DNA from: a virus
IMG/VR virus record: IMGVR_UViG_3300048921_000571
Span: 1-46,978 of that record
Length of the DNA stretch: 46,978 nucleotides
Strand: one strand, 5' to 3'
Shown here: positions 35,420 through 42,156 of the stretch, piece after piece
How the letters are laid out: every line of letters begins with the position of its first letter
Position numbering within the stretch: position 1 is the stretch's first letter
Program-made: the position numbers and the translations under genes
Notes under the pieces: generated by a model
Told to the model about the DNA's origin: nothing
Databases searched by the model: none
The model's input: the letters and a program-made list of their open reading frames with translations, nothing else

Positions 35420-36334
35420 TCAGGCCCTCGCCAGTTCGTGGTCGCGCGGGACAGTGAATCCTGCAGCGCGCGCATGCCCACCACCGCCGTACAGCGCGGC
35501 CACCTCGCTCACGTCCACCGCGTCCGGCGTGGACCGCAGGCTGAACACGCGGCCGGCGGCCGTGTCGTAGTAGCAGGCGGCGAAGGCGCGGCCCTTGCCC
35601 ATGAGGTGGCCGGCCTCGCTCACCAGCGCGCGCGGGACGTTCGCCGCCGGCACGTGGTAGTTGCCGATCACCAGCTCCCGGCGCGACAGCGCGACCTGTT
35701 CGGCCACGTCCTTCGCTCTGGCCCGCTCCAGCACCAGCCCCTGCTGGTACAGCGAATAGGTCGTCTCGGCGGCCAGCGCGTCCCACGCCTGGAACGTGTA
35801 CGGGTGGCTGTGGACCGTGGCGCAGATCTCGCGCGTGTGCTGCAGGGCAAACCGCCACAGGTCGCGGTCCTCTACGTGATCAAGGAACGCCGGCCGCGCC
35901 TTGCCGGGGTGGAAGAAGTCCCACGCAATACCGGCCCCACTGCGGTTCATATCGAAGAGCGCGCAGACGATGCCACTGCCGACACTGGCGTTGGCGGAGT
36001 AGTAGTCCCAGGCCTGCCGCGCGTCCGGCAGGTTGTCGAGTCGAACAACGTGCGCCATGCCACCCTGACCGAAGTAGCGATTCTCCGTCGTCAGGCTGGC
36101 TTCGGCCGACTTGTGGTGGTCGAGCACCAGCACCGAGCGGGCAGCCCGTCCCAACCGCATCAGCACGTCGAACGGATAGCAGAAGTCCACCAGGATCACG
36201 TCGCGGCCGGCGACCTCCGGCGGCGGCTCCCCGTGAACGCCGGGGTGGAACTCGGCGTCCATCGCCTGGCGGACGGCCCATGCCGCGGTGAACCCGTCGG
36301 CGCAGTTTGCGTGGTAGATGACCAGCGGCTTCAT
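35420..36334 (-). CDS. DHH/DHHA1 phosphoesterase
   Basis: A 304-residue protein with the start MKPLVIYHANCADGFTAAWA (metal-binding N-terminal strand), Asp50 in ILVDF, the DHH motif at 72-74 (VLVLDHHKS) and a C-terminal DHHA1 motif GGGGHARAAG. Families with this fold include nanoRNases/oligoribonucleases (NrnA), RecJ and cyclic dinucleotide phosphodiesterases. Its short size and lack of RecJ extensions speak for a small nucleotide or oligonucleotide substrate. In a phage replication operon it could recycle nucleotides or remove cyclic dinucleotide alarm signals (inference). Confidence 0.9.
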   Translation of the reverse strand: MKPLVIYHANCADGFTAAWAVRQAMDAEFHPGVHGEPPPEVAGRDVILVDFCYPFDVLMRLGRAARSVLVLDHHKSAEASLTTENRYFGQGGMAHVVRLDNLPDARQAWDYYSANASVGSGIVCALFDMNRSGAGIAWDFFHPGKARPAFLDHVEDRDLWRFALQHTREICATVHSHPYTFQAWDALAAETTYSLYQQGLVLERARAKDVAEQVALSRRELVIGNYHVPAANVPRALVSEAGHLMGKGRAFAACYYDTAAGRVFSLRSTPDAVDVSEVAALYGGGGHARAAGFTVPRDHELARA

Positions 36335-36573
36335 CGTGGTGTTGCTCCTGTCTGTCTGGTGGTGCGGCGGCGGCGGGCCGGCGCGGGTTTGCATTGGCGG
36401 GCCAGCGCTTCAAGCCGCAGCGCCTCGCCCAGGTAGTAGTCGTGGCGTTCCTGACGCTCGGTCGCACTGAACTGCACGTCGCGCAGCGCGGTCTCGGCAG
36501 CCACACGGTTGGCCTTGGCCAGCCGCGCCGGGTCGCGCTCGAAGATGTCCAGCTGGGTCCTGAGCGGGCGCAT
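36331..36573 (-). CDS. Small basic phage protein
   Basis: An 80-residue helical protein with a basic C-terminus (CKPAPARRRRTTRQTGATPR). Its start overlaps the stop of the upstream gene and its stop overlaps the DHH gene start. Function unknown. Confidence 0.65.
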   Translation of the reverse strand: MRPLRTQLDIFERDPARLAKANRVAAETALRDVQFSATERQERHDYYLGEALRLEALARQCKPAPARRRRTTRQTGATPR

Positions 36574-39519: not shown

Positions 39520-39975
39520 TCAGGCCACCTGCACTTGGATGACGCGCTCGGCGTCGGGATCGATTTGGGCGGCCTCGGCCGCCGGTTGTTCGGCCTGGAC
39601 ACCGAGCAGCTTCATCACCTGCGGGAGGGCCGGAACGCCCTGCTCTTCCGGCCAGGCCTCGACCTGCTCCACCGGGAGCTGAAGCACCTTCGCCAGGTGC
39701 GCATCGGTCTTGAAACCGAACTTGGCCCGCAGCGCGCGTTTGCTCATCCGGCTGTCGACCAACGGTCCGATCACAGCGCGCGGGCTCGCGATAGCCACCA
39801 GCGGCTCGGCATCGACCATCCGGGCTAGCCGGAACGCTGCGTCGGCTCTCGGCGCCTTAGTACGCCCAGCGATGATTTCGCGGACTGCATTGGGCGTAAC
39901 ACCCATCCCGGCCGCAATCGAATCAACGGTTGCGCCGGCACCGATCAAACCTTGAATTTGAGATTTCCAGTCCAT
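39520..39975 (-). CDS. cro: Cro-like transcriptional regulator
   Basis: A 151-residue protein with an N-terminal helix-turn-helix (GATVDSIAAGMGVTPNAVRE) and a helical C-terminal part. It is the first gene of the PR operon and divergent from the repressor, the position of cro. PR has its -10 only eight bases before the ATG, so the mRNA would have almost no leader. It is larger than lambda Cro (66 residues). Confidence 0.75.
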   Translation of the reverse strand: MDWKSQIQGLIGAGATVDSIAAGMGVTPNAVREIIAGRTKAPRADAAFRLARMVDAEPLVAIASPRAVIGPLVDSRMSKRALRAKFGFKTDAHLAKVLQLPVEQVEAWPEEQGVPALPQVMKLLGVQAEQPAAEAAQIDPDAERVIQVQVA

Positions 39976-39983
39976 GTATAGGA

Positions 39984-40036
39984 AAGCTACAGAATCCTGT
40001 AGGTCTAGTCAACAGCATTCTGTTACAGAGTTCTGT
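39984..40036 (-). promoter_or_regulatory. PR promoter with three-site operator OR
   Basis: Minus strand: TTGACT (complement at 40007-40012), 17 bases, TAGCTT (complement at 39984-39989). Three operators fit ACAG-N4-CTGT: 39989-40000, 40012-40023 and 40025-40036. The first fills the spacer of PR and the second touches its -35. Centres are 23 and 13 bases apart. This matches lambda OR in design. Confidence 0.85.
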
Positions 40037-40048
40037 GACCATTTCCCG

Positions 40049-40729
40049 ATGGAAACCATCGGCACCCGCGTTCGTCGTGAGCGCGAATCACAAGGCATTG
40101 AGCGGCGCGAGCTGGCCTCAAAGACCGGTATCGGCTACAGCACGCTGTCCGAGCTGGAACGCGGGGGTATGCAGACCACCACGAAGCTGCGCGTCATCGC
40201 CGACGCGCTGGGCGTCTCCCAGCGCTGGCTGGAAACCGGCAAAGGTCCGAAGACGGCGCGGGGAGAGGCCCCGGTCTCAGCCGTCTTAGCGATTGAGACC
40301 AGCCCCGACTATGTTCGCGTCCAACAACTGGATGGAGACGCAGACATGGGGGATGGACGCATCAATGAGGACTTCCCGGACATTGTCCGAGGCATGGATT
40401 TTGCCCCCACCTACATCCGTTCCGTGGTTGGATTCGTGCCGCCACCAGGCCGCCTTGTGCTGGTCACCGGCCGCGGCGATTCCATGATCCCTGTCATCAA
40501 CCCAGGTGAGTCTCTGATGGTGGATACGGGAGTGGAGTCCTTTGACGGTGACGGCATCTATCTGCTCAACACGGGCAATGGCCAGCAAATCAAGGGACTG
40601 CAGGATCGTGGCGACGCGATCTACGTGGTGAGTGCGAATGCTGCCCTGTATCCCGCGTTTCCCATGCCCAAAGGAACGCTGATCGGCGGAAAGGTCTACC
40701 TGCGCAACAGGATCGATCGATTTAATTGA
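40049..40729 (+). CDS. cI: CI-type repressor with S24 domain
   Basis: A 226-residue lysogeny repressor. The HTH domain covers about 5-62 (ELASKTGIGYSTLSELERGG). The LexA/S24 domain has Ser145 (RGDSM) and Lys182 (QQIKGL), 37 residues apart as in LexA. No Ala-Gly or Cys-Gly pair is present where cleavage normally occurs, about 30-35 residues before the Ser. No Shine-Dalgarno precedes ATG 40049, so translation may be leaderless as for lambda cI from PRM. It should bind the five ACAG-N4-CTGT operators. Confidence 0.9.
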   Translation: METIGTRVRRERESQGIERRELASKTGIGYSTLSELERGGMQTTTKLRVIADALGVSQRWLETGKGPKTARGEAPVSAVLAIETSPDYVRVQQLDGDADMGDGRINEDFPDIVRGMDFAPTYIRSVVGFVPPPGRLVLVTGRGDSMIPVINPGESLMVDTGVESFDGDGIYLLNTGNGQQIKGLQDRGDAIYVVSANAALYPAFPMPKGTLIGGKVYLRNRIDRFN

Positions 40730-40771
40730 TGGCGCCGACAGGCGCTTTGTCTACACCCAGGGGAACCAAGG

Positions 40772-41338
40772 ATGAAGAAGCTATTCCTCGCAGCCGCCAT
40801 CGCGATGTCGGTGGCCGGCTGCTCCACAAACCCGCCGTTGAACTTCTCAGTTCCCAGCGTCGGCGTCAGCACCAAGAAGATCGAAGGAGAGCTCAGATCC
40901 CTGACGGTCACGCTTGCTCGACCGGATGAGGCCAAGGGCAGAATCCCTGCCCAGGCGCAGCACGAAGTCCCACAGATGTGGCAGACAGCTCTGACTGAAG
41001 CCCTCAACAAGATGGCAATCTTCCGAGACGATGCACCCAGAAAGTTCAGCCTCTCGGTCAAGATCCTTGCGATTGATATCCCTGGATTTGGTGCATCCAT
41101 GACGACGAAGACGATCGCACGATACGAGCTCATCGATCGCGCCAATGGAAGCATCGTCTATACGCAGGACGTCAGCGCTGAGGGAACCGTCCCCTTCGAC
41201 TACGCCTTTGTAGGTGTCGTCAGGGCGCGTGAATCGCTCAGCCGCTCGGCGCAAAACAACATCTCGCAGTTCCTTCAGGCGCTGGAGACTGTGGACGCGA
41301 GCAAGCCGATGTTCCCTAGCTCCCAGGTGAGCGAGTGA
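40772..41338 (+). CDS. Lipoprotein downstream of the repressor
   Basis: A 188-residue lipoprotein: MKKLFLAAAIAMSVAGC with lipobox VAGC, Cys17. Residue +2 is Ser, which fits outer-membrane sorting. The mature part resembles the YajG-like type of lipoproteins (MWQTALTEALNKMAIFRDDA, then IPGFGASMTTKTIARYELID), but I cannot assign a family. It follows the repressor by 42 bases and overlaps the next lipoprotein gene (GTGA). Its position equals that of rexAB in lambda; it is probably made in the lysogen. Confidence 0.75.
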   Translation: MKKLFLAAAIAMSVAGCSTNPPLNFSVPSVGVSTKKIEGELRSLTVTLARPDEAKGRIPAQAQHEVPQMWQTALTEALNKMAIFRDDAPRKFSLSVKILAIDIPGFGASMTTKTIARYELIDRANGSIVYTQDVSAEGTVPFDYAFVGVVRARESLSRSAQNNISQFLQALETVDASKPMFPSSQVSE

Positions 41339-41802
41339 AGCGCGCCTGCCTTGCGCTCTTTGGTGCCGCAGCGCTGTCCGCATGCGCACCAAATGTCAGA
41401 ACTGACAGCTACTCGATTGGCTCCGTTGGGCAGGTGAATCGGACTGTTGCCGGAACAGTGATCAGCGTTAGATCCGTGTCCATTGACGGTAGCCAAGGCG
41501 GCGGAGCCGCTGCCGGCGCTGCCGCCGGCGGCGTCGCTGGCTCAACGATAGGCGGGAGCGACAGGGCAAATGCAGTTGGTGCGATTGGTGGAATCGTGGT
41601 CGGCGCCATTGCAGGCGCTGCCACCGAGCGCAGCGTTTCCGCCACTCGCGGACTTGAGTACGTGGTGCAGACAGAGAACGGCAACCTGATGACAGTTGTT
41701 CAAGGCCCAGACCCGACGTACGCGACCGGATCAAGGGTGCTTGTGCTTTACGGGTCACCGTCCAGAGTGATCGCCGACCCCAGGCACCCACCTACACCGT
41801 AA
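41335..41802 (+). CDS. Glycine-zipper (SlyB-like) outer-membrane lipoprotein
   Basis: A 155-residue lipoprotein with lipobox LSAC (Cys17), a glycine zipper (about 54-97, GGGAAAGAAAGGVAGSTIGG and GAIGGIVVGAIAG) and a C-terminal beta domain (EYVVQTENGNLMTVVQ), the layout of SlyB/Pcp proteins. It starts at GTG 41335 overlapping the previous stop. A terminator follows. Confidence 0.8.
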   Translation: MKRACLALFGAAALSACAPNVRTDSYSIGSVGQVNRTVAGTVISVRSVSIDGSQGGGAAAGAAAGGVAGSTIGGSDRANAVGAIGGIVVGAIAGAATERSVSATRGLEYVVQTENGNLMTVVQGPDPTYATGSRVLVLYGSPSRVIADPRHPPTP

Positions 41803-41806
41803 GAAC

Positions 41807-41829
41807 AGCCCCGCATCGCGGGGCTTTTT
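41807..41829 (+). terminator. Intrinsic terminator of the repressor-lipoprotein operon
   Basis: AGCCCCGC at 41807-41814 pairs with GCGGGGCT at 41818-41825, loop ATC, then five T. It insulates the lysogenic operon from the PL operon. Confidence 0.9.
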
Positions 41830-41872
41830 CATGACAGCCCCGTCAGGCCCGGCCAGCAGCCCGAAAAGAATT

Positions 41873-41913
41873 ACAGAATCCTGTTGACAGGTCACTACAG
41901 GATTCTGTAACTT
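41873..41913 (+). promoter_or_regulatory. PL promoter with two-site operator OL
   Basis: TTGACA at 41884-41889 and TAACTT at 41908-41913, spacer 18. Operators ACAGAATCCTGT (41873-41884) and ACAGGATTCTGT (41897-41908) overlap -35 and spacer/-10. The second operator and the -10 nearly repeat those of PR. The promoter drives the rightward early operon from 41965. Confidence 0.85.
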
Positions 41914-41964: not shown

Positions 41965-42156
41965 ATGGCCACCCTGGCCCTCAGCACCTCTTCCGGACCC
42001 GTCCTGGTCCAAGCCCAACCCGTAACCGGCAAGGTCGCCATGCACGTCGGCGCCGCTGGCCGCGTCTACCTCTCCGCCACCGAAGCCGAAGACGCCGCCG
42101 CGCAGCTCCTGAGCGCCGCCGCAGACCTGCGCAGCACCCAGCAGGCTGCGGCATGA
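41965..42156 (+). CDS. First gene of the PL operon
   Basis: A 63-residue Ala-rich protein (VAMHVGAAGRVYLSATEAED). GGAG precedes ATG 41965. Its stop overlaps the next start (ATGA). The slot is that of lambda N, but no Arg-rich RNA-binding motif is visible, so an N function is not supported. Confidence 0.7.
   Translation: MATLALSTSSGPVLVQAQPVTGKVAMHVGAAGRVYLSATEAEDAAAQLLSAAADLRSTQQAAA

Follow-up and report, generated by a model that had tools for sequence, protein, structure and literature searches.

What do two lipoprotein genes do between the repressor gene and the left operators of a lambda-like phage? The genes, here called lip1 and lip2, lie in a viral contig of 46,978 bases (IMG/VR record IMGVR_UViG_3300048921_000571; 'the window' denotes this whole stretch of DNA). 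The window is a lambda-like temperate phage, with genes for an integrase, terminase, portal, major head protein, tape measure, tail fibre J, an O-like replication protein and an excisionase-like protein. That genes for exclusion or defence stand next to a repressor is a known principle (rex, bstA). In the P22-like phage BTP1, with the order c1-bstA(st313-td)-N, a cargo gene between the repressor and N takes the same slot; its product BstA is a phage-defence protein, not a lipoprotein. An earlier note on this DNA had suggested that the two lipoproteins may form a superinfection-exclusion unit, an interpretation that is plausible, and is strengthened and partly supported here.

Organization of the immunity region

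Along the + strand, the region runs from an HTH gene in the cro position (transcribed from the − strand) through three operators, cI, lip1, lip2, a terminator and two operators to the early operon. The earlier note had equated the order OL–lip2–lip1–cI–OR with lambda OL–rexB–rexA–cI–OR, and this is borne out by ORFs, operators and terminator, in mirror image of lambda. The cro-position gene (39520..39975, − strand, 151 aa) is the first of the divergent operon equivalent to the rightward operon of lambda; it gave a weak HTH_3 match (E 0.0056) and a match to phrog_25161 (E 1.6e-45), which carries no assigned function. The cI repressor (40049..40729, + strand, 226 aa) has an HTH and an S24 peptidase-like domain (Pfam PF01381, HTH_3; PF00717, Peptidase_S24). 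The 14-bp operator consensus TACAGRATYCTGTA was matched seven times in the window against 1.0 expected, a count reached by 0 of 100 shuffles of the window. Five of the seven matches lie at OR (39988..40001, TACAGAATCCTGTA; 40011..40024, AACAGCATTCTGTT; 40024..40037, TACAGAGTTCTGTG) and OL (41872..41885, TACAGAATCCTGTT; 41896..41909, TACAGGATTCTGTA). A putative PL −35 element, TTGACA (41884..41889, + strand), is found between both OL operators and points away from cI; it is kept in L004, a relative with ∼87-89% identical cI in which gene order and operators are conserved and substitutions occur at OL. The first gene of the early 'left' operon (41965..42156, + strand, 63 aa) stands outside the cI-lip1-lip2 unit. 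A DHH phosphoesterase gene was also noted in the early operon (35420-36394, − strand; phrog_4771, E 2e-101).

Both lipoprotein ORFs are exactly where they had been placed before, lip1 at 40772..41338 (+ strand, 188 aa) and lip2 at 41335..41802 (+ strand, 155 aa, GTG start), and their 4-bp overlap recurs in nearly all homologous loci. The 42-bp gap between cI and lip1 (40730..40771, + strand), which includes the ribosome-binding site of lip1, was searched for a terminator or a sigma-70 promoter and neither was recognised; a good intrinsic terminator, composed of a terminator-like stem (41807-41825) and a T-run (41807..41830 in all, + strand), follows lip2 and would close the unit. The proposal of a unit shared with the repressor and ended by a terminator thus has the support of the sequence, and we infer that lip1–lip2 would be cotranscribed with cI and hence expressed in the lysogen. 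Compared with the chromosomal copies of the pair described below, the window shows upstream similarity in the ribosome-binding stretch only (CAGGGGAA). The chromosomal Xanthomonas copies and those of L005-L007 have in common one more block upstream, with a TACAAT/TACTAT-like hexamer, and a TATAAT-type promoter-like site lies ∼30 bp upstream of the E. coli copy. Judging from these comparisons, the pair seems to have arrived in the window phage without its own promoter and to depend on cI transcription.

The lambda genes rexA and rexB are likewise two genes between cI and OL, on the cI strand and ending before PL. However, their proteins are unrelated to Lip1 and Lip2, which are lipoproteins, and no Rex family was found among the Pfam, NCBIfam and PHROG matches of the pair. 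The rexAB-equivalent position, and the prophage-stage expression that coexpression with cI would mean, could suit a role in the phage's own cycle, such as lysis timing, antiholin/spanin-like control or a Rex-type membrane response. We consider such a role very improbable, as neither protein matched a holin, spanin or Rex protein, homologues occupy phage-free chromosomal sites, and both proteins look like outer-membrane (OM) lipoproteins, unlike RexB, an inner-membrane protein, and RexA, which is cytoplasmic.

Lip2 is a SlyB-family lipoprotein by sequence and predicted fold

Both its sequence and its modelled fold place Lip2 in the SlyB family. It begins with a lipobox (MKRACLALFGAAALSAC17) whose Cys17 is invariant in 17 aligned sequences, followed after the lipid anchor by the conserved stretch SYSxGSVGQVNR and by a glycine-zipper transmembrane segment (residues ∼52-96) with invariant glycines at positions 57, 61, 65, 69, 73, 74, 82, 85, 86, 90 and 94. 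The alignment to E. coli SlyB (PDB 7ojf) is full-length, with a phmmer E-value of 5.3e-13 across residues 9-150, and the profile match to SlyB reached E 2.6e-15; the match to PF05433 (E 9e-4) was under the curated cut-off, and the PHROG assignment is phrog_13877 (E 6e-52). With the AlphaFold2 model, whose pLDDT was only 71, Foldseek matched just the SlyB13–BamA complex (7ojf; E 1.3e-8, TM 0.65/0.72), the next match being not significant. Thus, likeness to SlyB (7ojf/7ojg) extends over the 155-aa length, lipobox, glycine zipper, C-terminal beta domain and fold; the SlyB-type glycine zipper noticed before in one of the two genes understated a protein that is SlyB-like in its entirety. Lip2 differs from SlyB in being prophage-encoded and apparently expressed with cI, whereas SlyB is under PhoPQ, in being paired with lip1 at every locus found, and in its own N-terminal motif, SYS(I/V)GSVGQVNR.

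Rings of SlyB encapsulate OM proteins under stress (PMC13067283, PMC13082787), and a role of SlyB in OM stress is established (PMC13067283). Since Lip2 is a real SlyB homologue, the pair could be a case of lysogenic conversion, an extra SlyB-type OM guard that stabilises OM proteins or OM lipids under metal starvation, antimicrobial peptides or detergents; the gain would be lysogen fitness, and exclusion would be absent or incidental. We regard this explanation as possible but rather doubtful, for reasons that come from the related loci below.

TraT is a chromosomal OM lipoprotein that plasmids have repeatedly co-opted as a ring-shaped exclusion protein (PMC11733297). The parallel lies in an OM lipoprotein of chromosomal origin taken up by mobile elements and, for TraT, in an oligomeric ring; TraT also appeared in the Lip2 fold search, with a match that was not significant (E 0.68). 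By this precedent the pair could exclude other mobile elements or envelope attackers, as in conjugation or attack by contact-dependent toxins or colicin-like proteins. This is improbable in our estimate, since a sequence relation of the pair to TraT was not found and linked transfer genes were not seen.

Lip1 has a predicted OM-lipoprotein fold

Lip1 also carries a clear lipobox (MKKLFLAAAIAMSVAGC17; Cys17 invariant in 18 aligned sequences), as claimed before for both genes, and the conserved stretch after its lipid anchor is PPLNFSVPxVGV. It belongs to phrog_12521 (E 3e-73), with no function on record, and because its sequence matched nothing in Pfam or the PDB, we treat it as a family of its own. 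The AlphaFold2 model (pLDDT 77) predicts a beta-alpha-beta-beta-beta-alpha domain, for which Foldseek returned PqiC/DUF330 (XCC0632), Cj1090c, PelC, CsgG and LptE (E 1e-7 to 1e-5), at modest TM-scores of about 0.4-0.47 by query length for the best matches. The predicted fold of Lip1 is thus that of PqiC, PelC, CsgG, LptE and similar OM lipoproteins, to none of which it has a sequence-level match. Both PelC and CsgG assemble into rings at the outer membrane. Searches against viral predicted structures gave weak, uninformative matches only. The full-length homology of Lip2 to SlyB and the predicted fold of Lip1 are both new here.

Two existing names for Lip1 homologues were rejected. The E. coli copy has a PGAP name of the YajG family (PF03923), which was matched by none of the Lip1 proteins of the window, E. 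coli and L011. In phage PhiR30_1, the homologue (PV340558.1 11151-11711, equal to L002:8001-8561) is annotated as a UDP-N-acetylglucosamine acyltransferase; 'acyltransferase' has no Pfam support, and the label is probably a spreading misannotation.

Cor, T5 Llp and mEpimmI Lpp resemble the pair as phage-encoded lipoproteins made in the host envelope, although they are single proteins and apparently unrelated to Lip1 and Lip2. Against the Cor family (phrog_1119), the pair gave only E 0.098, over Lip1 residues 1-20, so that the likeness is confined to the signal peptide. The mEpimmI lpp genes, unlike lip1–lip2, are in the structural cluster; their products, shown to act against phages that depend on OmpA or LamB, are the example of prophage lipoproteins that can exclude phages at the receptor or at DNA entry (PMC11893012).

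Envelope proteins in the cI–OL interval of related phages

The interval between cI and OL was read in 49 viral contigs with a repressor related to the window cI, and envelope-directed proteins were predicted with a simple lipobox/hydropathy rule rather than with SignalP. In 40 of the 49 loci, the start of an ORF of 80 aa or more lies no more than 120 bp from the cI stop codon. These ORFs fall into 12 unrelated families, all 12 predicted as envelope-directed (seven lipoproteins, three secreted and two membrane proteins), compared with 6 of 101 control gene families of the same loci (Fisher p 4e-12). When any possible start codon was allowed, 9 of 97 control families were envelope-directed (Fisher p 9e-11), and two of these nine are lipoproteins within the cI–OL interval on the other strand. 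Of the nine loci left, seven (L079-L083, L085, L086) have a convergent lipoprotein in the interval. At L041/L042, a 127-aa secreted protein (+ strand) faces a convergent lipoprotein; that of L042 (199 aa) is a true YajG-family protein (PF03923, E 1e-21). In whole Xanthomonadaceae genomes, a set partly overlapping the viral one, an envelope protein was found in the interval at 11 of 18 loci.

That every relative has an envelope gene in the slot is ruled out: such a gene is absent near cI in L051/L093 and absent in L104 and L108, L109 has no predicted one, and L100 and L106 carry other genes. In L100, cI is followed by two small co-oriented non-envelope genes, by eye look-alikes of a BrnT/BrnA-type toxin–antitoxin, and in L106 by a gene for a 250-aa predicted cytoplasmic protein.

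The commonest occupant after cI (11/49), located right after the cI stop codon in L039, L048, L050, L052-L054, L057-L060 and L087, is a protein of ∼290-310 aa with an N-terminal zinc ribbon (MALISCVECGRQVSDQAEACPNCGHP) and then a transmembrane segment. L073, L075, L078 and L103 encode a protein with lipobox and transmembrane segment, which has a PDZ-like domain in L073 (PDZ_6, E 9e-6). Besides the zinc-ribbon, PDZ-like, YajG and DUF matches, the slot proteins gave no known domain, and PADLOC-DB had no match for Lip1, Lip2 or ten other slot proteins tested.

Among phages with related repressors, the cI–OL interval therefore appears as a hot-spot of interchangeable, predicted envelope proteins. 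This suggests that the slot is a place for changing the host surface, perhaps so as to shut out competing viruses, and the unrelated envelope proteins of the relatives give indirect support to a position serving functions of the superinfection-exclusion type. An OM guard against stress would leave unexplained why at least 12 unrelated envelope families occupy the same slot by the repressor. In the papers searched, no description was found of a slot with nearly all envelope occupants or of a SlyB-family pair in it, nor, in the open-access literature, of a SlyB encoded by a phage or of a lipoprotein gene located downstream of cI.

Distribution, exchange and selection of the pair

The earlier note proposed searching for the same pair downstream of other repressors. 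Three other immunity groups (L005; L006/L007; L008-L010), whose operator sequences differ from those of the window, do have the pair between cI and OL, but convergent to cI. In L003/L004 it is arranged as in the window. In L005-L010, two operator copies immediately precede lip1, and others lie at cI. Cotranscription with cI as a fixed property of the pair is thus ruled out by the convergent pair of L005-L010, with OL directly upstream; given also the other places taken elsewhere, co-orientation is not conserved. Lip1 is present in L008-L010, where lip2 is not recognisable. Other positions are after the tape measure gene (L011/L012), shortly after the terminase large subunit gene (L017) and, in E. 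coli lambdoid prophages, between ren and ninB/ybcN (280 of 5,426 complete genomes, ∼5%, all at least 99% identical); phage PhiR30_1 carries the pair as well. In the phage collection, a near DNA match to the region was not found. In E. coli CUVET20-1573 (L037:6874-7854), IS5 interrupts the lip1 homologue and lip2 is intact.

On chromosomes, the pair was found in Stenotrophomonas, Xanthomonas, Lysobacter, Luteimonas and one Alcaligenaceae genome, next to ordinary genes, for example queC, an MmeI-type restriction gene and those for sensor kinases, a UvrD-type helicase, an alcohol dehydrogenase and a TonB-dependent receptor. In Luteimonas arsenica (L034:2247-6573), it begins 68 bp after an MmeI-type restriction-modification gene, which suggests a defence neighbourhood around that copy. 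Based on its presence on chromosomes and at several positions in phages, the pair is best described as a host-type module carried as phage cargo, and its location between cI and OL is not exclusive.

Selection was estimated between the window and L004. With dN/dS of ∼0.01 for lip1 and ∼0.11 for lip2, both genes are, on these sequence comparisons, under purifying selection. The pair has dS ∼0.2 and cI ∼1.0, and so the pair was apparently exchanged more recently than the adjoining repressor, as a mobile cargo cassette ('moron') would be. Mobility between loci would also fit passive cargo without benefit at this position, an idea that is hardly credible given dN/dS far below 1 and a pair that, with one exception, is intact in every group examined.

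For a host-type module of the SlyB family that also occurs on chromosomes, protection from envelope stress is compatible with the sequence as well, and the OM stress guard is the main and a serious rival to exclusion: it fits well with chromosomal copies away from phage genes and with strong purifying selection. It also fits the observation that 7 of 8 tested pair-bearing genomes have no other SlyB-like gene (E ≤ 1e-4), a second one being found in G005 only. However, it leaves repeated phage pick-up at several positions unexplained, and a core stress gene is unlikely, since no more than 5 of the 199 family members sampled carry lip1.

DISCUSSION

Taken with the precedents of mEpimmI Lpp, SlyB rings and TraT, the slot statistics make hindrance of superinfection the most likely reading of the locus: lip1–lip2 would alter or cage an OM protein in the lysogen. 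We favour this reading tentatively, at somewhat less than an even chance. The mechanism that we infer, from lysogen expression and OM location to ring formation, target and exclusion, would run as follows. The lip1–lip2 cassette would be expressed from the prophage together with cI, and both lipoproteins would reach the outer membrane. Lip2 would encircle an OM beta-barrel with a transmembrane ring of the SlyB kind, and Lip1 would dock on the periplasmic side beneath this ring. The barrel, a receptor or DNA-entry route of other phages, would then be enclosed or plugged by Lip1–Lip2, and the lysogen would resist superinfection by a receptor-masking exclusion like that of Cor or T5 Llp, with a different protein architecture.

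Exclusion is favoured by a topology identical to lambda immC-rex-OL and by the presence of the pair in the cI–OL interval of three groups with different operators. Against it, the pair is strongly conserved and not diversifying, an unusual pattern for an arms race over a specific receptor; the copies on chromosomes and outside immunity regions, the L008-L010 loci with lip1 and no recognisable lip2, the lack of a PADLOC match and the modest TM-scores of Lip1 also count against it.

More generally, temperate phages may repeatedly have taken up SlyB-type OM 'guard' rings, along with a dedicated lipoprotein partner, which may itself make a ring in the periplasm, as a general receptor-caging barrier to superinfection, and more broadly the repressor–OL interval may be a dedicated exchange slot for lysogeny-stage envelope proteins; we offer this as a possibility clearly short of an even chance. 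Standard laboratory strains would allow the hypothesis to be tested with the E. coli copy, which occurs in ∼5% of complete genomes and in PhiR30_1. Should the pair exclude phages, the slot would provide a ready list of at least 12 candidate envelope exclusion proteins, most of them without annotated function, and the encapsulation of OM proteins by SlyB would gain a natural role in virus–virus competition.
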